A stretch of DNA of 64,000 nucleotides from Platanthera guangdongensis. Its lineage: Eukaryota; Streptophyta; Magnoliopsida; Asparagales; Orchidaceae. A program made the position numbers and the translations under genes. Positions within the stretch are counted from its first letter, which is position 1, and each line of letters begins with the position of its first letter. Location: contig CM077160.1 in assembly GCA_039583875.1 (NCBI GenBank), positions 116,671,895 to 116,735,894 on the forward strand. The letters run 5' to 3'. Of the stretch, positions 26,630 to 64,000 are shown in pieces. The notes below the pieces were generated by a model, which was not told where the DNA came from, searched no databases, and saw nothing but the letters and a program-made list of their open reading frames with translations.

Positions 26630-28127
26630 TGTTGGAACACCCTATTACTAATTTGGGTCAGGATCACTATGTCTCTAGGAACCTTTGCTTGACCTTCTGT
26701 ATAGCTTAATGGGTCAATTAGAATTGAGTCTAAGGGTTAGAAGACTAGGTTTGGAAGCTGCCCTGCAGACCAGGATTCTCTATTTGGAGACTAAGTCATA
26801 TCGTCGAGCTCAGCACGACGATTCGTCGAACTCCGATCGACGATCGTCTAGCTCAACCTCCACAGATCGTCGATCTCCATTCGATGATCGTCTAGCTCAA
26901 CTTCGACAGATCGTCGATCTCCATTCGACGATCGCTGAGCTTAACTTCATTATATCGTCGAACTCCATTCGACGATCTTTGAGCTCAGATCGACGATATT
27001 TTGCTGCTGTATATTTCCAGATCGCTGAGCTCAGCTCGACGATAGCAGAGCTCAGTCCGACGATTTAAGATAACTTCCAGAATGCTTCTAATTCAAATTC
27101 AAATCAGTTAAGGAGTTATTCTGCAATTAATTCAGAGATTTCCTAGCCGTTTTCATTCAATTCTGGACCAAGTTTCAAGTGATTTTTCAAGAAATATTTT
27201 TGTGGACTTTCCTCCAGAAGAGATTTGGCAATTAAGGATGCAATCAATGCAGGCTAACGGCTATTCTTGACAGAGAATGTTATTCTATTCTGCACCAGAG
27301 AATAAAAGACATAATTTTTGAGTCAACAAACATACAAGAGAGAGACACACAGAACAGAGATTATAGAGACACATTCAAAAATCTTCTGTCACAAAAGAAT
27401 TCTGAAGAACACACATCCAAGGAGATCAAGCCTTCTCAAATCTTTAGATCTCCTTAGTCTTCAAAGTGTTCAAGGCCAACATATTTCCAGACTCCAGACA
27501 TTCAACATTTCAGCTATTGCTGAAATCATCTATTGCTGGAGTTCAACCTTTGAAGGCCTATCACCCTCAGCAAAGCTTTTCTTCCTGAAGATCTCAAGGA
27601 TTCAGGGGGAGCTTTGACATCAACAATCCACATAGTCTATTCAGTTGTTTGAGAAAGAGAAGACTGCCATCACTCTCTCACCCCCTCTCTGTAAAGGGTT
27701 TCTCAAACTCCCTTCAAAAGTTTGATCTTGGTTTTTGAGCACCTTGTCAAAAGCTCATTGGTGGCAAGACACCTGATCAAAAAATCTGCTTTGGTTTTTG
27801 AGCACCTTATCAAAAGCTCATTGGTGCCCAGGACACCTGATCAACTCATCCTGCAGTGGATTCCTACCTAGGGTGGTAGAAGAGTGGATGTACCCAAGTT
27901 TAGGGGAACCACTATATTTCCTTGTGTCTTCTGGTTTTGCTTGTTTTCATTTTTGTTTCTGGCCTTGATTTTTCTGTGATTAGCTTTTGTTTAACTTAGT
28001 GCTGTGATTAGTTTTATTATTGCTTCCCTGCTCACTATTATTACAACAGTTGTTGTAAAAAGTTTCAAACCACCATATACTCTATTAACCCCCCCTCTAG
28101 AGTATATCAGATCTAGCTGCTCTTTCA
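26630..28127 (+). repeat. Element D 5' LTR (1498 bp)
   Basis: It starts TGTTGGAACACCC and ends GCTCTTTCA, followed by attggtatcaaagc. It contains the TCGTCGA/TCGACGA array at 26800-27064 and a TATA-like aataaaaga at 27301-27309. Frames inside it (26685-27068, 27318-27617) are also present in the other LTR and have no domain. Confidence 0.92.
26800..27064 (+). repeat. TCGTCGA/TCGACGA inverted-motif array in element D 5' LTR
   Basis: Half-sites tcgtcga and tcgacga alternate with short spacers often containing agctc, giving inverted pairs such as tcgtcgaactccgatcgacg. About a dozen half-sites occur in 265 bp. The 3' LTR copy is at 37335-37598. Confidence 0.85.
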
Positions 28128-28129
28128 AT

Positions 28130-28141
28130 TGGTATCAAAGC
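28130..28141 (+). other. Primer-binding site of element D (tRNA-iMet type)
   Basis: The sequence tggtatcaaagc starts two bases after the LTR; one base differs from the usual tggtatcagagc. Confidence 0.85.
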
Positions 28142-28260
28142 GAGGTTGGTTAAACATACCATACCTGATTGGTTGTACAGGCTAACACCTGAACCCAAAT
28201 ATCCCAAACTAGATCTGCCTTTCTTTGGTATTTTATTATTAAATTTTGTTTTCACAAATC

Positions 28261-30312
28261 ATGGCCCAAAACAAAGATTATGCTAGCACCAGACCTCCAG
28301 TGTGCAATCTATCCAAGTTTGCACTTTGGAAGGCAAGGATTAGACTTTACATGAATTCTATTGACTAAGATATCTTTAATTCTATTTTGACAGTGTGTCC
28401 AAGACCCCCAGAGAACACAAGTACAAATGCTGTTCCACCTCCATCAGGAACAGATGCTGATATCAAGAGATGGAAAGTAGCTGATGCTAAGGCTATGAAC
28501 ATCCTAGCCCAGACAATGTCTGATGACATATTTCAAAAGGTAGCTGAATGTAATTCAGCCAAGGAAATTTGGGACAAGCTCTCAGAAATAGTCTCAGGCT
28601 CAGCTGATGAGAGAAAGGATAGAAGATCCCACCTCATCTCTCAATATGAGAATTTCAAGAAGGGAGAGACTGAGTCAGTGGGAGATATGTACAACAGACT
28701 AAGTCTAATTGTCAGTGAACTCAGGACATTGGACAAAGAGATCTCTCTAACAGAACTTAATGACAAGATCCTAATGTGCTTCCCCAGCACTTGGGATTCA
28801 AGAATCTGGCCAATTAAGGATGCCAGAAGTCTAAATGAGATCACCACTGAAGCTCTATTGGGTAAGCTCAAATCTTATGAGCTACTCATCAAAAATAGAG
28901 AGGAAGAACATAAGGTTGCCTCACCAGCCACAAGAAAAGAGAATACCATAGCATTCAAGGCAACTGAAGATCTGCCTGAAGATAAAGCTACAGGCAATGA
29001 TGAACTACTCAGTCTGCTGGCCAAAAGATTTTACAAAATGGCCAGAAAGGACTTCAGAAGAAGATCATACAAGGAGCAGGATAAGCCAAGGTATGACAAG
29101 TCCATTAGTAATAATAAAGACATTATTTGCTTTGGTTGCAGGAAACCAGGGCACATAGTTCCTGACTGTCCAGAGAACAAGAACAAGGACAGAAGGGACA
29201 GGAAAGAAAGAAGAAAGGAGAAAGACTCCAAAAGGAATGGCAATGGCAAACCTTCTTCAAGCAAAAACAAGCATACAAGAAAAGGGTTTGTTGCTGAATC
29301 CTGGAGTGAGACAAAAGAAGAGTCAGAAGCCTCATCCAGCTCCAGTGATGATGAGGATGATGTAGAAGAAAAGGAGTTCTGCAAGATGGCAATCAATGCC
29401 TCACAGCACAATTCAGAGGAAGAGGAGTCAGAGTCAGACTCAGAGAATCAACCTGAAGAAGATCAGGTAATTGGTTCTTTTGATTTTAGTTCAGAAGATT
29501 TTAAATCTGAATTTAAAGCACTGTGTTTAGACCTGCTAAAGTCTGAGAAAGAGATTATCTCTGTCAGAAATCAATTATCTGAACACAATACTTTAAAGTC
29601 AGAAAACCTCAAACTCTCTCAGGAGTTGGAGTGTTGTAGGGAACAGATAGCCTCACTGAAAAGTGAGCTCTCTGAGGCCAAGAAGCTTGAAGAATCCCTT
29701 AATGGGAGAAGCATCAAGCTGATGGACATCACAAGCACAGTGAACTCCAGATTCAACAGTACACTGGGCTTGGGTGCTTCATCCAGCCAACCTATAGTCC
29801 TAACAACTCCAATCAAATTCATTTCTGACAAAGGAAAGGGAGTTGTAGAGGTTGCTAGGAAAAATTCTGATCTGCCTCAGAAAACTAAGTCCCAGCTGAA
29901 ATTGTCGAACAGAGATCGACGATCGCCGAATGAAGATCGACGATCGCCGAACGCAGCTCGACGATCTCAGGCAAAAATGTCGAACGATGATCGACGATCT
30001 CAGCCAAAGTCGTCGAACGCAGGTCGACGATCTCCAATACCTGACCTCAGCCATAGTCGACCATCGAACGGAGCTCGACGATCTGACCCAAGATCGTCGA
30101 ACGCAGCTCCAAGATCGTCGAACAGAGGTCAGAGCTCTGGAAAATTTTTCAAAGGCAAATCAAAATTGAATCCTAAGGGTCCAACATCCCAAATCTCTAA
30201 CCCTTATACTGAATGGATTATACCTCCAAGGAGATATCATCCTGAAGGTTATAAGAGTGAACCTGGGATGTCTTTCATTTCAGAATTTAAAGGTTATCAA
30301 CCTAAGCCCAAG
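28261..30312 (+). pseudogene. Element D gag (one stop), with Arg-Arg-Ser repeat tail
   Basis: The ATG at 28261 (MAQNKDYASTRPPVC) opens the frame; taa at 28366 is the only stop in gag. The copia gag core contains NLSKFALWKARIRLYMNS and CFPSTWDSRIWPIKD. A CCHC zinc knuckle CFGCRKPGHIVPDC lies at about 29128-29169, followed by a Lys-rich basic region, an acidic Ser-rich region and a coiled coil (about 29540-29700). The C-terminal tail at about 29903-30125 is made of the family DNA motif read as DRRS/ARRS repeats. At 30312/30313 gag runs straight into pol, without the stop and 40-nt segment present in element E. Confidence 0.9.
29903..30125 (+). repeat. TCGTCGA/TCGACGA array inside gag of element D
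   Basis: The same half-sites as in the LTR occur about 15 times here, inside coding sequence, where cga cga tcg reads Arg-Arg-Ser. The result is an SR-like basic peptide repeat. The frame is kept throughout. Confidence 0.85.
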
Positions 30313-33300
30313 GTGAAGACCTATCCAACATCTAACCAGCAATGCTATTTGGATAGTGGGTGCTCTAAGCACATGACAGGGAACAAGGACAACCTCACAT
30401 CCTTCAGAGCCAAGCTTGGACCCAAAGTTATCTTTGGTGATTCAAACTTTGGACAGACTAAAGGATATGGTGCAGTCTAGATTGGTTCAGTAACTTTCAA
30501 GAAGGTAGCTTATGTGGAAGGACTGAAGCAAAACCTAATTAGCATCAGTCAGCTGTGTGATGAAAGCTACCAGGTGACCTTCAGCAAAGCCTTATGCAAA
30601 ATCAAGTCAGAGGACAACATAACTGTGTTGACAGGTAAAAGAAAAGGTAACATATACCTAGTAGATTTTCTTTCAACTGATGTAGATATCTGCTTGTTTA
30701 ATTTTGTCTATAGACCAAATATTTTATGGCATAAGAGATTAGGACACCTAAACCTTAGAACTATTGCTAGGCTATCCAAAGACAACCTTGTTAGAGGACT
30801 ACCTTCTGGCCCCTACAAGAAGGAAGGACTCTGCAGGGCTTGTCAATTAGGCAAGCAAACTAAAAACAGTTTTAAGTCACTTAATAAGAGTGATTCACCT
30901 AGGATATTGTATCTGTTACACATGGATCTCTTTGGACCCATCACAGTACAAAGCCTAGGAGGGAAATCCTACACTTTAGTAGTTGTAGGTAACTTATCTA
31001 GATTCACTTGGGTGTTCTTTCTAAGAAAGAAGTCTGATAACTTTAAGTGTCTGACAGAGTTTCTCAAATGTATACAGATTGAGTTCAATACTCGCATTGC
31101 CCTGATCAGAAGTGATCATGGGACAGAGTTTGATTCTCTTCTTATGCAAGAGTTCTGTCAGAGTGAAGGGATCAGACATACTTTCTCAGCTCCTAGAACT
31201 CCTCAACAAAATGGGGTAGCTGAAAGGAAAAATAGAACCCTTATTGAATCTGCCACTACATTGTTGTCAGATGCTCATCTACCTCTATCCTTCTGGGCAG
31301 AGGCAGTGAACACCTCCAACTATGTGCTGAACAGAAGTCTGATACATAAACTAAAGGGAAAGACTCCCTATGAATTACTCAAAGGGAAGAAACCTAAAGT
31401 TGACTATTTTAGAGTCTTTGGTTGTATTTGCTACATTCACAATAATGACAAGAAATATTTAGCAAAATTTCAAGCCAAAGCTGATGAAGGAGTGTTTCTG
31501 GGATACTACATGATCAGTAAGGCTTACAGGGTCTATAACAAATCATCTTTGAAAATTGAGGAATCTGTTCACATTTCATTTGATGAAACTAACATGTCTT
31601 TCAAGGAGAAGATTTCTTCTACCATAGAACCTTTGCAGGAACATTCTCTAGTTGAAGACTTGAACAAGTTACAGGTTACTCAAGAGGATGAAAGCAGTGA
31701 AGATGAAGGGAATGCTCAACATAATGAAGAACAACTTGAAGAGCTAGTTGTTGTACCCCAAGAGGAAACAACAACACAGGTTGGTGAACAATCAACACCC
31801 CCTGTTGATTTAGTAACATCAAGAGACCATCCAATTTCCCAAATAATTGGAGAAATCTTAGCTGTTGTGCAAACCAGAAATCAGGTGAACCAAAACCTGT
31901 TGCACACCTGCTTCCTATCTCAAATTAAACCTCAGTCCATTCAAGATGCAGAGCAAGATCCACACTGGATCATTGCAATGCAAGAGGAGTTGCATCAATT
32001 TGAGAGGAACAAAGTATGGGAACTAGTGCAAAAGCCTAAGGATCACTCCATTGTTGGAACAAAATGGGTATTCAGAAACAAACTGGATGATCAAGGAGTA
32101 ATTATAAGGAACAAGGCAAGGCTAGTTGCTTAGGGATACTCTCAAGAAGAAGGGACAGACTACGACCAGACTTTTGCACCTGTTGCCAGATTAGAAGCCA
32201 TCAGAATATTTCTAGCTTATGCAGCTCACAAAGGCTTCAAGGTCTATCAGACGGATGTCAAAAGTGCATTCTTAGATGGAGACATCAAAGAGGAAGTTTA
32301 TGTCAGGCAACCTCCAGGTTTTATCTCCCCAACTTTTCCTGATTATGTTTTTAGACTGAATAAAGCATTATATGGTCTCAAGCAAGCTCCTAGAGCATGG
32401 TATGAGACCCTAGCATGCTTTCTCTTGGAAAATGATTTTATAAGGGGTAGAGTAGACCAAACACTTTTCATTAGAACCCATAAGTCCCATACCCTACTAG
32501 TACAAATTTATGTAGACAACATTATTTTTGGTTCTATTGACTCCAAATTGTGCAGAAGGTTTTCCAACCTAATGCATTCTAAATTTGAGATGAGTAGCAT
32601 GGGTGAGCTGTCCTTTTTCATAGGATTGCAAGTCAAACAGCATGCTGAAGGCATCTTCATTTCTCAAACAAAATATGCAAATGAACTGGTTAAGAAATTT
32701 GGTATGTCTGAGGCATCTTGTATGAAAACACCCATGTCTACTAATGCTGTATTGGATGCTGATGAACATGGAAAACTTGTTGATCAGACAACATATAGAG
32801 CAATGATTGGCTCTTTACTTTATCTTACAGCTAGTAGACCAGATATAATGTTTGCTACATGTATATGTGCTAGGTTCCAAGTAAGCCCTAGAGAGTCACA
32901 CCTAACACTAGTAAAGAGGATTCTCAGGTATGTTAAAAGTTATCCAAATCTAGGTCTCTGGTATCCAAAAGATTCAGCATTTGATTTAACTGGATTCTCA
33001 GATGCTGATTATGCTGGATGCAGAATTGACAGGAAAAGCACCAGTGGAACTTGTCAGTTCCTTGGTGATAGACTTGTCTCTTGGTTTTATAAGAAACAAA
33101 CATCTGTGTCAACTTCAACTGCTGAAGCTGAATATATGGCTGCAGGCAGTTGTTGTTCACAAATCTTGTGGATTCAAAACCAACTCCTAGACTATGGCTA
33201 CAACTTAGAGAAGTCTAAAATCTTTTGTGATAACACAAGTGCTATTTCCATAGCTCAAAATCCAGTCCTCCATAGTAGGACAAAACACATAGAGATTAGG

Positions 33301-33459
33301 CATCATTTCTTAAGGGATAATGTTGAAAAGAATAAAATTGAACTACACTATATCCCAACTGACTTACAAAGGGGAGATATTTTCACCAAGTCATTGGATG
33401 AAAAGAAACACACCTTCTTCCTAAATCAGTTAGGAATTTTAGATGGAGGAAGTCTTTAA
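30313..33459 (+). pseudogene. Element D pol: protease, integrase, RT, RNase H (two stops, RT box mutated)
   Basis: In frame with gag. Protease has [13 protein letters not shown] (DSG near 30352). GAG-pre-integrase has [10 protein letters not shown]. Integrase has [16 protein letters not shown] and [15 protein letters not shown] and RNase H run to 33459. Stops are tag at 30478 and 32131; at both, element E has cag. The RT catalytic box at 32509-32520 reads YVDN instead of YVDD. The integrase VVDDFSRF word is changed to VVGNLSRF, and RT has [12 protein letters not shown] for the usual [12 protein letters not shown]. No frameshift is present. The protein would process, copy and integrate the element; this copy is inactive. 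Confidence 0.92.
32509..32520 (+). other. RT active-site box of element D, mutated (YVDN)
   Basis: The codons tat gta gac aac replace the second catalytic Asp by Asn. Element E keeps YVDD at 61630-61641. Confidence 0.85.
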
Positions 33460-33550
33460 TAATATCCAAGATTTTGAAAGCTTAAAAATTGACCAAGACT
33501 AGGCAAACATTCTGATTTTTTTCTTAGTGTCTAGAATTTTTCTGATCTCT

Positions 33551-33814
33551 GAACTGCGCTCGACGATTTGCCCCAAGATCGTCGAACAGAGATCAACGAT
33601 TTCCAAAAATCGTCGAACTGAGTTCAGCGTCTATCAGATAGTATGAACAATCTCTTCCGGTCAACGATCGTCGAACGGCGCTCGACGATTATGTTCTCTG
33701 AACGATCGTCGAACGGAGCTCGACGCTCTCCAATATCGTCGAACGGAGATCGATGATGTTGAAGACTCTTCAGATTCCTTTAGAAGCCTCGATCGTCGAA
33801 CAGAGTTCAACGAT
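33551..33814 (+). repeat. TCGTCGA/TCGACGA array between pol and ORF3 of element D
   Basis: It starts about 90 bases after the pol stop and carries about a dozen half-sites of the family motif, many as inverted pairs around a short spacer (tcgtcgaacggcgctcgacg). This is non-coding sequence. Element E has the same array at 60337-60606. Confidence 0.88.
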
Positions 33815-33836
33815 CTTTCCAATTCTGCATCGAACC

Positions 33837-33848
33837 CTAATATAAAAC
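33837..33848 (+). promoter_or_regulatory. TATA-like box upstream of element D ORF3
   Basis: The sequence ctaatataaaac follows the internal motif array by about 25 bp and precedes the ORF3 start by about 115 bp. The same word is kept in element E (- strand, about 60302-60314). Together with the array it resembles a copy of the LTR promoter layout; activity is inferred. Confidence 0.5.
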
Positions 33849-33961
33849 TCTTTTTTCGCCGTCGTTCTCTTTTGCGCTTTCGATTTCTCTGCAAGATTTT
33901 TCTTTTCCTCCAAACAGTTCTACACTTGGTCGTTTTGTTTGTTGAGTTTTTGTAGGTACCA

Positions 33962-36900
33962 ATGGCCGTGTCAGTTGCTGTTCTTGCTGCAATGAATTTT
34001 GATGCTGGGTTTGATATTGATATAGAATCCTTCAGCACGACTGACCAGATTTTTCAAGATATACTGGGTTTGTTCAAGGACCAGAATCTGACTGTCATAA
34101 TGACCACCAGGATCAAGCTGGCTTCTGATGAGATCAAGAAGTGGGTTTATACTGCTCATAATCAAGATAACTCTACCTTAGTTGGGTCTATAGCTGGAAC
34201 TCAGGTACCCTTGACCCCAACCATTCTATCAGAAGTTTTTGAATTAAGAAATGGAGAAGATTCTACTGAGTTATCTGGAGAAGAATATTCTGAACTGCTT
34301 GCCAGAATGGGTCATCCAGAGGGAAACCCTAGCAAGCTCTTCAAAATGAACCTGTCTGTAGAATACATGTTCATGGCAGATGTGGTTGGAAAAGTGCTAC
34401 TGGCAAAGCACTCTGCCCATGATACAATATCAAGATATCAGCTCTGCCGCATGGGAGCTCTTGTGTATAAGAAGAATCTGAATTGGGGAGAGGTTTTCTT
34501 TGATCTCATCAAAAAGAAAATCAACAAAAGTTTTGTTAATTTTGGGAGAATTATTGGAGTATTTCTGCAGCACAGGTGCCCTGCCTTGCTGGTCTCCTCT
34601 GGAGTTCATATCAATGCCTCCAAGAGACTGACCTGTGCCCTCTTTGGAAAGTGGGACAGGCAAATAAGCAAGCCTAGCAGGCCCTCCTCCAGTGCTCCTT
34701 CAGGCACAAGGACTCCAAGAGTCACTCCTCCACAGGTATCTGCCCCTGCAGATGACCTGACTGCTGCTGTTGCCTCTCCTCCTCCTCCTACAATTCCATC
34801 CCTTCCCATACCATCCACCATTCTAGCTCCATCCACCATCATCATATCCAGCCCATCACCAACATCAACACCTTCTCCAGAACCTATTCTACCTCCACCA
34901 GCAGACCAATTACACCCACTATTCTCCTATCCTCCACCAGATGTCACCTCATCACCCTCTCATCCATCCTTCACCCTACTTGATGATTCCTTTATGGATG
35001 ATTCCCCATCATCTCCTCCTGAGTTACCCTCCTCCTCCACTTCATTTCAAGCCCTCCTACACTAAATCATAGACCAACCAACTTTCACCCCATCTATCTC
35101 CATCCCTCTATCCTCCATATCCACCTTGCCAACACCTCAGCCATCCCTTCCACCCTACTCCAGCTCTCCACTTCCAGAACCTTCAGGTGCTCCTATACCT
35201 TCTACCTCTGCTCCAGCTCTTGAGCAAGTAGAACTCTCAGCCCTTGCTTACAGGCTGTATGAGCTGCTTGCCCCCAGGCTCTCTCTGCTCTTGGAGACCT
35301 CATTGGCTCCACTCCACCTGTCAGTGGCAGCCCTTTCTGCCAGGCTCTCTTCCCTCTTCCCTCAAGCAGCACCTGCAGCAGTGTGCCTTGATCCAGACAT
35401 GTCTGCATCTAGGCAGGGGGAGATGCCATATGAAGTGAATCTTCATGCTGCTGCTGCTGCTGTTAGTACTGCTTCTTTTGCTGCTCCTCCTCTTGTTGCT
35501 GTTGCTGTGCCTCCAGAAAGTTAGATTTCAACTGCAGTTCTTGCAATAGACCTCAGGTCTTTGCTTTCAGCTTTTGATTCTGCTTACTTCAGCTGTCTGC
35601 CAGAGGTCCATGCTGTCCAGCCTCTAGAAGATTTATCCAAGGCACTTGTGCCTTTTTCTTGCTGTGACCCCAGCTTTATCACCTCTTTTGTACATTCAGT
35701 AACTGCTGCTGCTACAAATATTGATACTGCTGCTGAAGTTTCTGTTGTTTCTGATGAACCTATTTCCAAGGACATTCTTATGACAGAGGCAACTGACTTT
35801 GAGCCTTCTGCAGTCTTTGATGATGTTCCTTCTGTTTCTGTTGCTATTAGGGAATCTGCTGTTTCTGCTGCTGCTAGTGAAGTTGCTGCTGTTGTCACCT
35901 GTCCAGAGCCTACTGCTGCTGCTGTTGTTGTTTCTGCTTCACCTTCTCCATCTACTGCTGTCCCTGCTGTTACCATCTCAACACCTGCTGCTGCTGCTGC
36001 TATTTCAACTTTTGCCTCATCTGCTTCTGTTCAGCTCAAAAAGGACTTGATGAAGAAAATAGATGCTCTCTATGAGGACTAGAGTTCTGAATCTGATGAA
36101 TTTAAAACAGACTCTGATGACTCTTCTGCTACCATTGCCAGGAAAAGGAAGGCAAGGAGCAAAGCTATGAAGAGGGTACCTCCTGCTAAAGTCAAAGATA
36201 ACAATGACATTCCATACTATATCCTTCATGACTGTCCTATTTCTGAACACTGGATGCAATACTCTAAAAATCAGCTGAAAGCAATGAAGAAAAAGAGAAA
36301 ATATGAGAAGGGTTCATCCCAATTCCAGCACTCTCATCCTCCTCCACCACCTCCTCCTGATGCAGGTCAGGTGGAAGCTCTACAAGTCAAACCCCAGCAA
36401 GAAGTCAGGCTCCCTATCAACCTCATGCCAGATCTTACCACAGGGAAAGCTAATCCAGGGGTTCACATTCTAGGAGAGGAGGATATAGAGGTAATCAAAG
36501 AGACATTCAAGTCTATTCCAAAGGGTACTCTAGGCAGCACCCATATTCTAGGGGAGGACAAATTTCATCTGATACATCATCAGGTCCTTTCCCTTACAAG
36601 CTGAAAGAGACTGTGTCTGCCAGGCCTCCTCGGGACAATCCCTCCAACAGGTATGAGCCACCTGTACCCTTTGAGGATCCTGAAAATAATCCAGCTGCTT
36701 GGACTGCCAGATTAAAGTAATTAGCTGCACTGGATCAGATTAAAAAGGCCAGAGAACAAGGATTAGATTCTTCCAACATTTCTACTATGTCTGAACAGAG
36801 ACAGAAAGAACTAGAGAGATATGCTTCAAGTAGATTCTTTGATGCTGATAGATATATGGAATTACATCCTGAAGTAGTGGTTCCCAGGCTTAAACAGCAA

Positions 36901-36996
36901 ACATCTTTAGGTGCAGCAGATGACAGCAGATCTAAGAAGGAAGCCCTCAATCCTAATAGAGAGATTAAAATGGTTAAGGGCAAAGAGAAGAAATGA
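33962..36996 (+). pseudogene. Element D ORF3 (extra ORF after pol; stops and one frameshift)
   Basis: The ATG at 33962 is in good plant context (ccaatggcc). Residues 1 to about 225 are a globular domain shared with E and, more weakly, with C (FDLIKKKINKSFVNFGRIIG). A Pro/Ser-rich linker follows, then Ala/Val-rich low complexity, a basic region with RGG-like residues, and a charged C-terminus ending MVKGKEKK. Stops are at 35063 (caa to taa against E), 35522 and 36080 (cag to tag against E) and 36718. A one-base deletion near 36367 shifts the frame. Uninterrupted, it would be about 1010 codons. No membrane segment is evident. Function is unknown. Confidence 0.8.
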
Positions 36997-37151
36997 TATT
37001 GTAAGGTGATAATTTCTGTGATTTCTGACTGCTATCAGGATGATATATATTTCTGTGATTCTGCAATGTCTAGCTGTTGTTTTTCTGCTTTAATGCTTGT
37101 ATGTTGTTATTTAAATTTTTCCAAAGTCTGTAAATAGTAATCCTAACCCAA

Positions 37152-37163
37152 ATATGGGGAGAT
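37152..37163 (+). other. Polypurine tract of element D
   Basis: The sequence atatggggagat lies directly before the 3' LTR. Confidence 0.75.
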
Positions 37164-38666
37164 TGTTGGAACACCCTATTACTAATTTGGGTCAGGATCA
37201 CTATGTCTCTAGGAACCTTTGCTTGACCTTCTGTATAGCTTAATGGGTCAATTATAATTGAGTCTAAGGGTTAGAAGACTAGGTTTGGAAGCTGCCCTGC
37301 AGACCAGGATTCTCTGTTTGGAGACTAAGTCATATCGTCGATCTCAGCATAACGATTCGTCGAACTCCGATCGACGATCGTCTAGCTAAACCTCGACAGA
37401 TCGTCGATCTCCATTCGACGATCGTCTAGCTCAACTTCGACAGATCGTCGATCTCCATTCGACGATCGCTGAGCTCAACTTCATTATATCGTCAAACTCC
37501 ATTCGACGATCTTTGAGCTCAGATCGACGATATTTTGCTGCTGTATATTTCCAGATCGCTGAGCTCAGCTCGACGATAGCAGAGCTCATTTCGACGATTT
37601 AAGATAACTTCCAGGATGCTTCTAATTCAAATTCAAATCAGTTAAGGAGTTATTCTGCAATTAATTCAGAGATTTCCTAGCCGTTTTCATTCAATTTTGG
37701 ACCAAGTTTCAAGGGATTTTTCAAGGAATATTTCTGTGGACTTTCCTCTAGAAGAGATTTGGCAATTAAGGATGCAATCAATGCAGGCTAACGGCTATTC
37801 TTGACAGAGAATGTTATTCTATTCTGCACCAGAGAATAAAAGACAGAATTTTTGAGTCAACAAACACACAAGAGAGAGACACACAGAACAGAGATTACAG
37901 AGACACATTCAAAAATCTTCTGTCACAAAAGAATTCTGAAGAACACACATCCAAGGAGATCAAGCCGTCTCAAATCTTTAGATCTCCTTAGTCTTCAAAG
38001 TATTCAAGGCCAACATATTTCCAGACTCCAGACATTCAACATTTCAGCTATTGCTGAAATCATCTATTGCTGGAGTTCAACCTTTGAAGGCCTATCACCC
38101 TCAGCAAAGCTTTTCTTCCTAAAGATCTCAAGGATTCAGGGGGAGCTTTGACATCAACAATCCACATAGTCTTTTCAGTTGTTTGAGAAAGAGAAGACTG
38201 CCATCACTCTCTCACCCCCTCTCTGTAAAGGGTTTCTCAAACTCCCTTCAAAAGTTTGAGCTTGGTTTTTGAGCACCTTGTCAAAAGCTCATTGGTGGCA
38301 AGACACCTGATCAAAAAATCTGCTTTGGTTTTTGAGCACCTTATCAAAAGCTCATTGGTGCCCAGGACACCTGATCAACTCATCCTGCAGTGGATTCCTA
38401 CCTAGGATTGTAGAAGAGAGGATGCACCTAAGTTTAGGGGAACCACTATATTTCCTTGTGTCTTCTGGTTTTGCTTGTTTTCATTTTTGTTTCTGGCCTT
38501 GATTTTTCTGTTATTAGCTTTTGTTTAACTTAGTGCTGTGATTAGTTTTATTATTGCTTCCCTGCTCACTATTATTACAACAGTTGTTGTAAAAAGTTTC
38601 AAATCACCATATACTCTATTCACCCCCCCCCCCCTCTAGAGTATATCAGATCTAGCTGCTCTTTCA
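37164..38666 (+). repeat. Element D 3' LTR (1503 bp)
   Basis: It starts TGTTGGAACACCC and ends GCTCTTTCA. It is nearly identical to the 5' LTR. A poly-C run near 38624-38634 is longer than in the 5' copy. The motif array is at 37335-37598. Confidence 0.92.
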
Positions 38667-49575: not shown

Positions 49576-51697
49576 ATGTCACAGAATAAGAAATATTCTA
49601 GCACCAGACCAACTGTGTGCAACTTGAATAAATTTGCAATCTGCAAGAAAGAATCAAACTCTACAGGAACTCTATTGATGAGGACATTTTCAACTCTATT
49701 TTGACAGGTCCCCCTCAACCTACAGCTGCTACTACAACCACCAGTACACATGCAGTTCCATCACCTGAGTGGACTTATACACAAAAGAAAGTCAAGATAG
49801 CTAATGCCAAAGCAATGAATATTCTGGCACAAACAATGTGAGATGACATCTTTCAAAAGGTGGCTGAGTGCACCTCTTCAAAGGCTATTTGGGACTCACT
49901 GAACCAAATAGTTGCTAGATCATCAGATGAAAGAAAAGACAGGAGATCCCTCCCCATATCCATGTATGAGAATTTCAAGAAGGAGGAATCAGAGACTGTT
50001 GATGAGACGTATAACAGACTCAGTGTCATCATAAATGAACTGAGAACCCTGGATAAGGACATCTCATTAACTGAGACAAATGACAAAATCCTAATGTGCT
50101 TCCCCAGCACTTGGGATTCTAGGATATGGCCAATAAGGAGGCCAAAAGTTTAAATGAGATTTATACAAAATCTCTCCTTGGCAAGCTCAAGTCTTATGAG
50201 CAATTGATCAAGAGAAGGGAGGTTGCTAAACAGAAGGCCTCTACATCTTCAAGGAAGGAGCACAACATTGCTTTCAAAGCAATAGAAGAATCAGAAGCTA
50301 TTCCAGCTAATGAAAAACTACTAAGCTTGTTGGCTAAAAGATTTTATAAAATGGCCATGAAAGACTTTAGAAGAAGATTATCTAAGAATGATGACAAGCC
50401 AAGATATGACAAGACTCCTACCAAGGAGATTATTTGATTTGGATACAAAAAAACCTGGGTACATTCTACCTGAATTCCTAGAGGCACGGAAGAAAGACAG
50501 AAGAAAATAAAAGGAGAATAGAAGGCAATCAAGCAAGCACTATAGCAAGCACTCCTCCAGCAGACACAAGAGAAAGGAGAAAGGCTTCATTGCTGAGACC
50601 TGGAGTGACACAGATGAAGAATCCTCATCTTCCAACTCTAGTGAAGATGAAGAGGAGGCAAAGACAAGGGAAGTTTTCTTTATGGCTATCAATGCCTCCT
50701 GCAACAAATCTGATGCTGAGGAACAAGCTGAAGAATCAGAAGAGGAATCTGAGTCTGAAGAAGATCAAGTAATCTCTTCATTTGATTTCAATTCAGAGGA
50801 CTTTAAAATTGAATTTAAATCCTTGTGCAATGATTTAATCAAGTTAGAGAAGGAAATAAAAATTGTTAGAGATAGACAGGTTGAATTTGATAACCTATTT
50901 GCTGAAAATATCAAATTGAAAAATGATTTAGACTTAGCCAATCAGCAAATCATTTCACTAAAAACCTGAATTATGTGAGGCAAAACAACTCGAGGAATCT
51001 CTCAATGGGAGAATCCTTAAGCTGATGGACATCACAAGCATAGTCAATGCCATATTAAATGGTAAGCTCGGCTTAGGTGCTTCATCAAGCTTACCCCCAT
51101 ATTAAAGAAAACTTTTCTTTCAACATCAATTAAATTTTCTCTAAAAAAGGCAAAAAAAATGGGAGAGACTACTCAACCAAATGTCTCTCAAAAATCTGTA
51201 TATAAGAAGAAAAGAATAAAAATCTGAATAAAAACTATGTTCAACAGATTTCGTCGAACTCAGATCGACGAAATGTGTATAGTTCGTCGAACCCAGATCG
51301 ACGATCTATGAATGCCAATTATAACTGTAAAAATTCGTCTTATTGTGATCGACGAACTGTATATGGTTCTTTGAGCAGCGATCGACAAACTTGGGGCACA
51401 GAAAATGATTATGTTCATTCTCTGAGCAGAGTTTGACGAACTCACCCCTATTCGTCAAACACAGATCGACGAACTTATAATAATTCGTCGAACCCAGTCA
51501 GGTTTAATAAAAACTATAACTCTGTTAGAAACTTCAATCAATTTAGAGAATCTACTAATCCTTTTACTCAATGGGAAATACCACCTAGAAGATATTATCC
51601 CTTATGATATAAAAATCAACCAGAACTTTCTGTTATTTCCAGTTTCTCTTATCAAAAGAAACAAGGACCCAAGTTAACCTGGGTCAAGAACACATAA
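49576..51697 (+). pseudogene. Element F gag (many stops and frameshifts)
   Basis: The ATG at 49576 starts MSQNKKYSSTRPTVCNL, matching the D gag start. Pieces of the gag core follow in shifting frames (KAIWDSLNQIVARSSDERKD; CFPSTWDSRIW near 50097). The zinc knuckle near 50440 has lost its Cys and His residues. Lys-rich, acidic Ser-rich and coiled-coil regions follow, then a motif array at 51250-51497 reading as DRR repeats. It ends with TWVKNT and taa at 51695-51697, the same ending as E gag. Not functional. Confidence 0.8.
51250..51497 (+). repeat. TCGTCGA/TCGACGAA motif array inside gag of element F
   Basis: Family half-sites recur, mostly as tcgtcgaac followed by gatcgacgaa, at the same place in gag as the array of element D. 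Several units retain coding of Asp-Arg-Arg. Confidence 0.8.
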
Positions 51698-51712
51698 TTC
51701 CTTTTTATGCAG

Positions 51713-53080
51713 GTGAAGGACTGTCCAGTCTTTAATCAATAATGATATCTAGACAGTGGATGCTCAAAGCATAGGAATGGCTGTAAGGACGATCTAATAA
51801 AATACAAGTCCAAGCTAGTTCCAAAGGTAATCTTTGATGACTCCAACTGTGGCCAAACTAAAGGCTATGGAGATGTTAAAGTTCGAGCAGTCACCTTCAG
51901 GAAAGTTGCCTATATGAGTGGCTTAAAGCATAACCTAATATCCATAAGTCAATTATGTGATGAAAGTTATCAGTTATCATTTAACTCATCTTCCTGTATT
52001 ATTACTTGTAAAGAAAACAAACCTATTTTAACTGGACTTAGATAAGGCAACATATATGTAGTAAATTTTCAATCAGCTAGTTCAGAACTTTGTTTATTTA
52101 ATTAGGTTAGTAATCAAAATGAACTTTGGCATAAGAGATTATGACATGTAAATCTTAAAAATATTGCTAAGTTATCTAGGGATAACCTTGTTAGAGGATT
52201 GCCTTCTGGCTCCCACAAGAAGGAAGGCCTCTGTAGGGCTTGTCAGTTAGGCAAGCAAACTCAAAATAGCTTTAAATCTGTAAATAAAACTGACTCACCT
52301 AGGATATTGTACTTGCTACATATGGACCTTTTTTGCCCTATTGCTGTATAAAGCCTGTGAGGGAAATCTTATACTTTGGTGATTGTAGATGACTTCTCAA
52401 GATTCACTTGGGCATTCTTTCTGAGATCTAAGTCAGATAACTTCAAGTTTCTTATAGATTTTCTTAAGAACATACAGATTGAGTACTCTACTCCAGTTAT
52501 ATTGATCAGAAGTGATCATGGTACTGAGTTTGAGTCTCTTCTTATGCAAGAGTTCCGTGAGAAGGAAGGTATCAGACACTGCTTCTCAGCTCTTAGAACT
52601 CCTCAACAAAATGGGGTTGCTGAAAGAAAAAATAGAACCCTAATCTAATCTGCATTCACATTACTTGCATACGCTTACATGCCCCTATCTTTTTGGGCAG
52701 AGGCTATGAGCACATCAAACTATGTACTGAACAGAAGTTCGATACACAAGCTTAAGAATAAGACTCCTTATGAGTTAGTTAAAAGGAAGAAACCTAAAAT
52801 CACCTATTTTAAAGTATTTGGATGTCTATGTTATATTCAAAACAATGACAAAAAATACACTAGAAAGTTTGAAGTAAAAGCGGCAGAGGGAATTTCTCTA
52901 GGATATTCCCAAGTCAGCAAAGCTTATATGGTGTTTAATAAATCCACTTTAAAAATTGAGGAATCTGTTTATGTTTCATTTGATGAGGCTAACATGTTTT
53001 ATAAGGAGAAAGAAGTTTCTACCAATAACATTTTGCAGGTACCTTACTTGTGTGAGAGATTGGATGATCTAAACTATTAA
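51713..53080 (+). pseudogene. Element F pol fragment: protease and integrase
   Basis: Pol begins after a pyrimidine-rich tract ending in cag at 51710-51712. The protease word YLDSGCSKH is present, preceded by two stops. GAG-pre-integrase (about 52125 onward, LWHKRL) and integrase (52376-53080, [40 protein letters not shown]) follow, with stops near 52648. Similarity to D ends near 53080, before RT. Integrase identity is clear; the gene is dead and truncated. Confidence 0.85.
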
Positions 53081-53456
53081 TCCAGAAATCGGCGATCCTT
53101 CCCAAGGTAGCCAGCTGGCTAGTCGCAACCTTCAGATTCTCCCTGGGGTTCACGACAAGTCCAAGTGTAGGCGGATAGTTTTCCCTGTCCGCCCAAGTCG
53201 CCTAGCAACTGGGTATCCTGCGGGGCGACGGGTTATTCCCATGGCTCACCCTCGCAGGCCACGCGATTAGGCCTGCTAACCATGCAGAATTCTTCCTTGC
53301 AGGAAGCAACTTACAGCATCAGGGGGTGATCTATGCAATCTACTCCTTTAGACCGCTAGGTCGCACCGCCAGCGTCAACGCGACCAACGCAACAGTCGCA
53401 GGTTCGGCTACTCTCTCCGGCTCAGGTTTTCCGCCGACCCAGGAGGGCGGCCTGCT
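53081..53456. other. Unassigned GC-rich sequence after the break in element F
   Basis: The base composition changes abruptly from AT-rich copia coding sequence to GC-rich sequence with gtccgccc words. It could be part of another inserted repeat whose ends I cannot define. No gene domain is seen. Confidence 0.4.
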
Positions 53457-54008
53457 GCCCAGGCCGCCGCCCTTAGTGAGTGGCATGCCCAGGCCGCCGC
53501 CCCTTGTGGGCGGCCTGAGCAGGCCGTCGCCCCTTGTGGGCGGCCTGCCCAAGCCGCCGCCCTAGTGGGCGGCCTGAGCAGGACGCCGCCCTTAGTGGGC
53601 GGCCTGCCCAGGCTGCCGCCCCTAGTGGGCGGCCTGAGCAGGTCGTCACCCCTTGTGGGCGGCCTGGCCAGGCCGCCGCCCCTTGTGGGCGGCCTGAGCA
53701 GGCCGCCGGCCCTTGTGGGCGGCCTGAGTAGGCCGCCGGCCCTTGTGGGCAGCCTGCCCAGGCCTCCACCCCTTGTGGGGGCCTGAGCAGGCCGCCGCCA
53801 CTTGTGGGTGGCCTGCCCAGGCCGCTGCCCCTAGTGGGCGGCCTGAGCAGGCCGCCGCCCCTTGTGGGCAGCCTGCCCAGGCCCCCGCCCCTTGTGGGCA
53901 GCCTGCCCAGGCCCCCGCCCCTAGTGGGAGGCCTGAGAAGGCCGGTGCCCCTTTTGGGCGGCCTGCCCAGGCCGCCGCCCCTAGTGGGCGGCCTGCCCAG
54001 GCTGCCGC
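53457..54008. repeat. 30-bp GC-rich minisatellite, about 18 units
   Basis: The unit is gcccaggccgccgccccttg plus tgggcggcct, alternating with a variant starting gagcagg. Two units have lost one base. The array ends exactly where the LTR-like sequence starting tgtaacaccccc begins. With a 30-base unit, several frames stay open on both strands and give 10-residue repeats (RPPPLVGGLS on +), which I do not call as a gene. Confidence 0.9.
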
Positions 54009-60691: not shown

Positions 60692-63600
60692 AATGACTTC
60701 CTCCATCTAACATTCCTAACTGATTTAGGAAGAAGGTGTGTTTCTTTTCATCCAATGGCTTGGTGAAAATATCTCCCCTTTGTAAATCAGTTGGGATATA
60801 TTGTAATTCAATTTTATTTTTTCAACATTATCCCTTAAGAAATGATGCCTAATCTCTATGTGTTTTGTCCTACTATGGAGGACTGGATTTTGAGCTATGG
60901 AAATAGCACTTGTGTTATCACAAAAGATTTTAGACTTCTCTAAGTTGTAACCATAGTCTAGGAGTTGGTTTTGAATCCACAAGATTTGTGAACAACAACT
61001 GCCTCCAGCCATATATTCAGCTTCAGCAGTTGAAGTTGACACAGATGTTTGTTTCTAACAAAACCAAGAGACAAGTCTATCACCAAGGAACTGACAAGTT
61101 CCACTGGTGCTTTTCCTGTCAATTCTGCATCCAGCATAATCAGCATCAGAGAATCCAGTTAACTCAAATGCTGAATCTTTTGGATACCAGAGACCTAGAT
61201 TTGGACAACTTTTAACATACCTGAGAATCCTCTTTACTAAAGTTAGGTGTGACTCTCTAGGGCTTACTTGGAACCTAGCACATATACATGTAGCAAACAT
61301 TATATCTGGTCTACTAGCTGTAAGATACAGTAAAGAGCCAATCATTGCTCTATATGTTGTCTGATCAACAGGTTTCCCATGTTCATCAGCATCCAATACA
61401 GCATTAGTAGGCATGGGTGTTTTCATACAAGATGCTTCAGACATACCAAATTTCTTAACCAGTTCATTTGCATATTTGGTTTGAGAAATAAAGATGCCTT
61501 CAGCATGTTGCTTGACTTGCAAATCCTAGGAAGAAGGATAGCTCACCCATGCTACTCATCTCAAATTTAGAATGCATCAGGTTAGAAAACCTTCTGCCAC
61601 AATTTGGAGTCAGTAGAACCAAAAATAATATCGTCTACATAAATTTGTACTAGTAGGGTATGGGACTTATGGGTTCTAATGAAAAGAGTTTGGTCTACTC
61701 TACCCCTTATAAAACCATTTTCCAAGGAGAAAGCATGCTAGGGTCTCATACCATGCTCTAGGAGCTTGCTTGAGACCATATAATGCTTTATTCAATCTAA
61801 AAACATAATCAGGATAAGTTGGAGAGATAAAACCTGGAGGTTGTCTGACATAAACTTCCTCTTTGATGTCTCCATTTAAGAATGCACTTTTGACATCCAT
61901 CTGATATACCTTGAAGCCTTTGTGAGCTGCATAAGCTAGAAATATTCTGATGGCTTCTAATCTTGCAACAGGTGCAAAAGTCTGGTCGTAGTCGATTCCT
62001 TCTTCTTGAGAGTATCCCTGAGCAACTAGCCTTGCCTTGTTTCTTATAATTACTCCTTGATCATCCAGTTTGTTTCTGAATACCCATTTTGTTCCAACAA
62101 TGGAATGATCCTTAGGCTTTGGCACTAGTTCCCATACTTTGTTCCTCTCAAATTGATGCAACTCCTCTTGCATTGCAATGATCCAGTGTGGATCTTGCTC
62201 TGCATCTTGAATGGACTGAGGTTCAATTTGAGATAGGAAGCAGGTGTGCAACAGGTTTTGGTTGACCTGATTTCTGGTTTGCACACCAGCTGAGATTTCT
62301 CCAATTATTTGGGAAATTGGATGGTCTCTTGATGTTACTAAATCAACAGGGGGTGTTGATTGTTCACCAACCTGTGTTGTTGTTTCCTCTTGTGGTACAA
62401 CAACTGGCTCTTCAAGTTGTGCTTCAATGTGTTGAGCATTCCCTTCATCTTCACTGCTTTCATCCTCTTGAGTAACCTGTAACTTGTTCATATCTTCAAC
62501 TAGAGAATGTTCCTGCACAGGTTCTATGGTAGAAGAATTCTTCTCCTTGAAAGACATGTTAGATTCATCAAATGAAATGTGAACAGATTCCTCAATTTTC
62601 AAAGATGATTTATTATAGACCCTATAGGCCTTGCTGATCATGGAGTATCCCAGAAACACTCCTTCATCAGCTTTGGCTTGAAATTTTGCTAAATATTTCT
62701 TGTCATTATTGTGAATGTAGCAAATACAACCAAAGACTCTAAAATAGTCAACTTTAGGTTTCTTCCCTTTGAGTAATTCATAGGGAGTCTTGTCCTTTAG
62801 TTTATGTATCAGACTTCTGTTCAGCACATAGTTGGAGGTGTTCACTGCCTCTGCCCAAAAGGATAGAGGTAGATGAGCATCTGACAACAATGTAGTGGCA
62901 GATTCAATAAGGGTTCTATTTTTCCTTTCAGCTACCCCATTTTGTTGAGGAGTTCTAGGAGCTGAGAAAGTATGCCTGATCCCTTCACTCTGACAGAACT
63001 CTTGCATAAGAAGAGAATCAAACTCTGTCCCATGATCACTTCTGATCAGGGCAATGTGAGTATTGAACTCAATCTGTATACATTTGAGAAACTCTGTCAG
63101 ACACTTAAAGTTATCAGACTTCTTCCTTAGAAAGAACACCCAAGTGAATCTAGAGAAGTCATCTACAACTACTAAAGTGTAGGATTTCCCTCCTAGGCTT
63201 TGTACTGTGATGGGTCCAAAGAGATCCATGTGTAACAGATACAATATCCTAGGTGAATCACTCTTATTAAGTGACTTAAAACTGTTTTTAGTTTGCTTGC
63301 CTAATTGACAAGCCCTGCAGAGTCCTTCCTTCTTGTAGGGGCCAGAAGGTAGTCCTCTAACAAGGTTGTCTTTGGATAGCCTAGCAATAGTTCTAAGGTT
63401 TAGGTGTCCTAATCTCTTATGCCATAAAATATTGGGTCTACAGATAGAATTAAACAAGCAGATATCTACATCAGTTGAAAGAAAATCTACTAGATAGATG
63501 TTACCTTTCCTTTTACCTGTCAACACAGTTGTGTTGTCCTCTGACTTGATTTTGCATAAGGCTTTGCTGAAGGTCACCTGGTAGCCTTCATCACATAGCT

Positions 63601-63838
63601 GACTGATGCTGATTAGGTTGTGCTTCAGTCCTTCCACATAAGCTACCTTCTTGAAAGTTACTGAACCAATCTGGACTGCACCATATCCTTTAGTTTGTCC
63701 AAAGTTTGAATCACCAAAGATAACTTTGGGTCCAAGCTTGGCTCTGAAGGATGTGAGGTTGTCCTTGTTCCCTGTCATGTGCTTAGAGCACCCACTATCC
63801 AAATACCATTGCTGGTTAGATGTTGGATAGGTCTTCAC
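60692..63838 (-). pseudogene. Element E pol: protease, integrase, RT, RNase H (few frameshifts)
   Basis: Protease ([13 protein letters not shown] near 63800), GAG-pre-integrase, integrase ([42 protein letters not shown]) and the first half of RT are open without a stop to about 61720. Three single-base insertions (near 61727, 61600 and 61523) add up to three. The RT box YVDD at 61630-61641 is kept, between the first and the second insertion. RNase H follows, with a tag near 61055 and a one-base deletion near 60830. The end, about 60692, matches the end of D pol. This is the best-preserved pol of the family in the window. Confidence 0.9.
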
Positions 63839-63878
63839 CTGCACATAAGACAATTCATTTGTTTTTGACCCAGTTTAC
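63839..63878 (-). other. Candidate 40-nt mini-intron at the gag/pol boundary of element E
   Basis: On the - strand the segment starts GTAAAC after cccaag and ends TTATGTGCAG before gtgaagacc. Element D has cccaag joined directly to gtgaagacc. The segment contains the gag stop (tga, after WVKNK) and shifts pol by one base. Its removal fuses gag to pol in frame. The boundary repeat aggt also allows a microhomology deletion as an explanation of D. Confidence 0.6.
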
Positions 63879-64000
63879 CTTGGGCCTAGGTTGATAACCT
63901 CTAAATTCTGAAATGAAAGACATCCCAGGTTGACTCTTATATCCTTCAGGATGATATCTCCTTGGAGGTATAATCCATTCAGTATAAGGGTTAAAGATTT
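63879..64000 (-). pseudogene. Element E gag, C-terminal end only
   Basis: The last codons of gag before the candidate intron, matching D at about 30190-30312 (EWIIPPRRYHPEGYKS region). The rest of gag and the 5' LTR lie beyond the window. Confidence 0.8.

Follow-up and report, generated by a model that had tools for sequence, protein, structure and literature searches.

A 64,000-nucleotide stretch of an orchid genome (the window) contains two retrotransposons, here called E and D, that differ at the junction of gag and pol by a segment of 40 nucleotides beginning with GT and ending with AG. The question raised by this locus is whether the segment is a removable intron, a sign of decay, or an ordinary part of the element. 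The answer that we hold to be fairly probable is that these are elements of the Sirevirus type whose ordinary gag/pol boundary is formed by the segment, that D would have lost it by a jump between short direct repeats, and that pol would be reached in other copies by skipping the spacer.

A 40-nt difference between elements E and D

In element E, which lies on the minus strand and leaves the window at position 64000, the segment occupies positions 63839 to 63878 and reads GTAAAC...TGTGCAG, whereas the corresponding junction of element D on the plus strand (30312/30313) lacks the 40 nt and reads CCCAAG/GTGAAG. Alignment of E and D gave near-identical flanks and a sole internal gap of 40 columns, confirming the presence of the segment in E and its absence from D as described in the first-pass annotation. 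The 40-mer is unique within the window when up to 3 mismatches are allowed, and it was matched in 0 of 100 shuffles. The sequence AGGT stands at both ends of the segment (minus strand; left copy at 63877 to 63880, right copy at 63837 to 63840), and due to the spacing of 40 nt between these copies the exact cut in D is ambiguous over 5 positions.

The segment was also described as holding the gag stop and displacing pol by one base, and this agrees with the reading frames. The last seven codons of the E gag frame (V-N-W-V-K-N-K, following P-K) and its TGA stop codon (63855 to 63857) lie inside the segment; the 3′ end of this gag frame spans 63855 to 63998, where it leaves the window, and the pol frame, which is +1 relative to gag, is open from 63874 down to 61700 (724 codons). 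The accompanying proposal that gag and pol form one frame without the segment holds for D, in which the frame is uninterrupted across the junction and extends from gag into protease for 703 codons, stop to stop (28369 to 30480, plus strand).

Element D runs from LTR to LTR over positions 26630 to 38666. The LTRs attributed to it are present (1.5 kb, 97.4% identical), and the attributed target duplication is imperfect, with the flanks CCATT and CCATC sharing 4 of 5 bases. In-frame stop codons in gag and pol (28366 to 28368, 30478 to 30480 and 32131 to 32133) indicate that D has decayed. Nor is E intact, since its gag frame contains a stop codon 132 codons ahead of the junction.

A third, degenerate element lies on the plus strand at 49.4 to 53.05 kb, and is approximately 76 to 78% alike over part of pol by self-comparison. 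It carries a homologous segment of 39 nt (51674 to 51712) that was not mentioned in the annotation. As this element also has the segment, the segment is ancestral and the state of D is derived. Near 53045 the third element ceases to resemble D and E, and the GC-rich sequence that follows at 53073 to 54008 shows self-matches at several offsets of at least 30 nt.

The gag/pol boundary in two sister subfamilies

Judged from their sequence features, all three elements are orchid Ty1/copia retrotransposons of the Sirevirus type. The frame order in D and E, assigned by eye, is gag (with a CCHC knuckle), protease, integrase and reverse transcriptase/RNase H, with further long frames downstream of pol, and the order of the pol domains agrees with the precomputed Pfam domains of the relatives P0001 and P0003. 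The large gag contains the knuckle CFGCRKPGHIVPDC in the D frame, and the gag relative P0006 carries PF14223. A terminal polypurine tract followed by an AT/TG attachment site, a described Sirevirus feature (PMC2829016, in the part drawn on here), reads GGGGGAGAT/TGTTGG in E and GGGGAGAT/TGTTGG in D. The best protein match for protease was from Platanthera zijinensis (2 of 5 matches were from Tanacetum), and gag was matched best by the ENA protein P0006, followed by proteins of P. zijinensis and P. guangdongensis. No relatives were confirmed in viral contigs, and a comparison of positions 63000 to 64000 with Rfam gave no match at expectation values up to 1.

According to the same part of PMC2829016, many Sireviruses have pol at +1 relative to gag together with a conserved inverted repeat at the boundary, and internal entry or bypass has been proposed for the expression of pol. 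The part of PMC5009743 drawn on cites Gao et al. 2003 for a 27-nt motif at the end of Sirevirus gag with an 11-bp stem and a 4-nt loop, treats the expression of pol as unsolved, and describes the puzzles awaiting resolution as still numerous. Both the +1 position of pol and an inverted repeat at the boundary, which mark this subset of Sireviruses, were found here, and the 40-nt segment is the already known Sirevirus gag/pol boundary, comprising a gag stop, a displaced pol and a small stem-loop.

The stem-loop has a stem of 6 bp and lies over the PKxxWV codons at the end of gag. In E it is formed over P-K-V-N-W-V by the arms GGCCCA and UGGGUC with an 8-nt loop (63867 to 63886, minus strand), and in the third element by the arms GACCCA and UGGGUC (51666 to 51685, plus strand). 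The fold in E is weak when taken alone (41 nt, z -1.42, with 21 of 200 shuffles as good; 81 nt, z -1.06); the third element gave z -2.08 for 41 nt (6 of 200 shuffles as good) and z -0.48 for 91 nt. The motif GPKxxWV is present in 3 of the 56 proteins compared, in each case at most 12 residues from the C-terminus (GPKVVWVKNN in P0006, GPKVTWVHNV in P0009, and GPKLVWVLKSNP in P0049 of tobacco).

Variation in the segment was scored on the 95 full-length rows among 100 listed copies of the subfamily of D and E (S1), all located on contig C1 and drawn from a total of 10,088. The GT...AG ends noted initially are general, with GT present in 94, AG in 94 and both together in 93 of these 95 copies, and 94 retain a gag stop, either TGA or TAA. 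The common variants up to and including the stop (AAA/AAG 48:47; TGA/TAA 67:27) are silent in gag and alter residues in the pol frame, indicating that the first part of the segment is translated as gag. Downstream of the stop there are four frequently variable sites, and the last 8 or so bases before pol vary in no more than 4 of the 95 listed copies each. Residues of the spacer read in the pol frame are variable (F/S/L 57:20:17; E/K 68:27), and the spacer therefore does not look translated in that frame. Of the 28 fetched S1 loci that have the entire 48-nt interior, all 28 place pol at +1 and 27 end gag at the same codon, and some fetched S1 loci have frames open to the edges on both sides.

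Two further observations were made on these elements. The predicted pol of P0001 (P. zijinensis) begins M-K-S-Y where the family reads GTG-AAG, and this GTG codon is ATG in 4 of the 95 listed copies, which is of possible interest for a model of new initiation. Runs of TCGAACG/CGACGATC-type repeats at window positions 29900 to 30140, 33540 to 33850 and 51230 to 51500, located in the 3′ part of gag and again between pol and the next frame, may be related to the repeated-motif boxes of Sireviruses.

The sister subfamily (S2) was sampled as 30 fetched loci, the third element included, of 40 scored relatives (6,678 first-look candidates). In all 30 the segment measures 39 nt and pol is in frame 0. 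The segment starts with GT in 25 of the 30 loci (with TT in the third element) and ends with AG in 29, and a TAA stop is present at its eighth codon in 28, the remaining two stopping earlier. Because these loci are the ones that best match a degenerate copy, and their frames are mostly broken, they show the inherited form of the boundary and not its function.

Access to pol across the spacer

The relation between the gag and pol frames is not fixed between the sister subfamilies, due to the difference of 39 versus 40 nt. With pol at +1 behind 40 nt in S1 and in frame 0 behind 39 nt in S2, a plain +1 shift cannot serve S2 and plain readthrough cannot serve S1. This speaks for a process by which the spacer is skipped. 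Such a process would serve both subfamilies, whether it is bypass, new initiation or, less likely, splicing; in normal copies pol would probably be reached by translational bypass or by fresh initiation near the pol start. The approximately 10,000 exact-flank copies and the two sister subfamilies constitute a natural test, in that any mechanism common to S1 and S2 must tolerate a changed spacer length.

Alternatively, ribosomes could pass through the spacer, with pol expressed by plain +1 frameshifting in S1 and by stop-codon readthrough in S2. This is consistent with the S1 pol frame overlapping the end of gag and continuing beyond the gag stop without a stop codon of its own in 91 of the 95 listed copies, with the in-frame stop that separates gag from pol in S2 (the TAA of 28 of 30 loci, or the earlier stop of the other two), and with the expression of the env-like gene of SIRE1 by readthrough (PMC2829016, in the part drawn on). 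However, the two sister subfamilies would need two different mechanisms, and the variable pol-frame residues of the S1 spacer make its translation look improbable, so that we consider this alternative unlikely.

Loss of the segment and comparison with known systems

The host genome (4.25 Gb, 274 contigs) was searched with a pattern consisting of the exact flanks of 13 nt and 15 nt, which identified 10,088 S1 copies with 31 to 61 nt between the flanks and 7 copies with 0 to 30 nt. The segment is an ancestral feature, and almost every copy with these flanks has it; its losses are rare and independent and have differing breakpoints, and D is the sole splice-exact case in S1. Two of the 7 losses were classed as AGGT-repeat jumps (D and L010), two end at CAGG and three lie elsewhere. 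D has lost 40 nt with a cut interval that includes the splice site, and L010/L014 has also lost 40 nt, with a hybrid junction for which the zero-change cut lies 3 to 5 nt past the splice site. L011 (26 nt lost) and L016 (20 nt lost) have 2-nt overlaps at CAGG, and L012, L013 and L017 have lost 19, 19 and 20 nt with 2, 2 and 3 further changes, respectively. The different 19-nt deletion in L012 (G000:C1:142070601) also joins gag and pol in one frame.

When up to 3 mismatches were allowed, a pattern lacking the segment matched only D and L010 in the genome, and no further copy with the D junction was therefore detected. Among 37 loci, the nearest neighbour of D is E (2.4% on both sides) and that of L010 is L023 (5.7% and 5.2%); each sits among segment-bearing copies of different subgroups, showing that the two losses are independent. 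An origin of D by crossover of two different parents at the junction was rejected, as E is its nearest relative on both sides. Background gaps of at least 10 nt, in a comparison of 19 loci over 57,444 bases aligned against L021 that is too small and messy to give a background rate, fell for the most part within the tandem repeats of gag and in L025, a locus with an odd alignment; gaps of 21 to 34 nt in fetched copies cluster in the TCGAACG-type run of gag.

In S2, the gap pattern gave a single loss, L069, which removes exactly the 39 nt, is splice-exact, and is to be read as a count and not a rate; its nearest fetched relatives are approximately 92 to 93% alike. Allowing 3 mismatches added one match, L070, with the junction GTAAAG. 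L070 was considered as an S2 hybrid resembling L010 and dropped as evidence, as it is only approximately 79 to 84% like the S2 loci.

The segment is flanked by the imperfect direct repeats AGGTAAA and AGGTGAA, and we infer that D lost it when reverse transcription or replication jumped from one repeat to the other; this would remove the 40 nt and, by chance, join gag and pol. Resolution of the jump before the one repeat mismatch would give the D junction, and resolution after it the L010 junction. As AGGT repeats flank the segment in S1 and S2 alike, a repeat jump can explain D, L010 and L069. Splicing yields only the D-type junction, so that L010 favours the jump, with L069 fitting either process; drawn from L010 alone, this preference is moderate. 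The probability of two GTA junctions in four losses under splicing is 0.0004 to 0.03 for GTA rates of 0.008 to 0.08 (GTA being taken as 1 of about 125 copies), a value to be discounted because it includes L070. Deletion is further favoured because exact losses are rare and the other breakpoints are scattered. The deletion between AGGT repeats that the first-pass annotation had offered as its alternative therefore fits better than the origin of D from a spliced RNA that it had raised as a possibility.

Splicing would make the segment a retained, facultative intron of 39 to 40 nt, with unspliced RNA giving gag, rare spliced RNA giving gag-pol, and D and L069 representing reverse-transcribed spliced RNAs. 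The GT and AG ends in both subfamilies are in keeping with this, as are splice-like surroundings in both (AAG/GTAA, and a pyrimidine-rich tract before CAG/G) and the agreement of the gag and pol frames upon removal of the segment from S1 and S2 despite the one-base difference in length. Against deletion, a 4-nt repeat is weak homology, and one splice-exact loss is present in each subfamily, L069 being the sole loss found with the S2 gap pattern, as splicing predicts. Facultative introns also exist in the copia elements BARE1 (104 nt) and, in the part of the literature drawn on, EVD. However, GT also simply starts the Val codon after GPK, and P0049 has Leu at this position, which disfavours a general donor there. 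Splice-exact loss was found just once in 10,095 exact-flank S1 copies, one other loss is 40 nt long but off-site, and the other five of the 7 large losses at the same place have other breakpoints. L010 has the right length and the wrong junction unless a further G-to-A change is assumed (GTA is present there in 1 of 95 listed S1 copies), whereas no extra mutation is needed under the AGGTAAA/AGGTGAA jump. A length of 40 nt is also below the minimum of approximately 70 nt for plant introns, and no report of splicing at the gag/pol boundary was found in the literature covered on Sirevirus splicing and frameshifting, a scope outside which most subscription papers lie. An intron is therefore doubtful; if it were real, splicing and not ribosomal bypass would make the gag-pol fusion however the two frames relate in unspliced RNA, and D and L069, as rare exact losses, would be reverse-transcribed spliced genomes.

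A reading in which the gag stop and the displaced pol result from decay in E, with D showing the working arrangement, would suit the one open frame of D, the single gag-pol frame usual in plant retrotransposons (PMC2829016, in the part drawn on) and the early gag stop of E, but was rejected as highly improbable because thousands of copies and the sister subfamily contain the segment, fetched loci are open on both sides of it, and the stop is kept in 94 of 95 listed copies.

Among known systems, the Ty3/gypsy element Ogre has an intron between gag-pro and RT that averages 274 bp and for which splicing was shown experimentally (PMC6317226, in the part drawn on). Removal of the spacer would fuse the frames here as it does in Ogre, whereas the segment is 40 nt long and known from DNA alone. 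The copia element BARE1 has a 104-nt facultative intron whose splicing creates the gag stop (PMC3735527, in the part drawn on). It resembles the present segment as a short AG/GT...CAG interval near the end of gag, and differs in that removal of the segment would delete the stop. In the translational bypass of T4 gene 60, a take-off codon just before a stop and a stem-loop are combined with downstream landing in any frame. The analogous pair in S1 would be the Lys codon preceding the stop and the Lys codon of GTG-AAG, whereas S2 has Thr before the stop (ACC in most loci, by inspection) and thus no matched pair. The boundary under the preferred reading, an ordinary Sirevirus boundary with a skipped spacer, differs from the described one in its stem of 6 bp and loop of 8 nt (versus 11 bp and 4 nt), in the lack in E of the pol-frame UAG by which one cited Sirevirus subset is recognized, and in the frame-0 pol behind TAA of S2; it shares with SIRE/Maximus elements the +1 pol behind a gag stop, the inverted repeat at the gag end, the large gag with a CCHC knuckle and the further long frame after pol.
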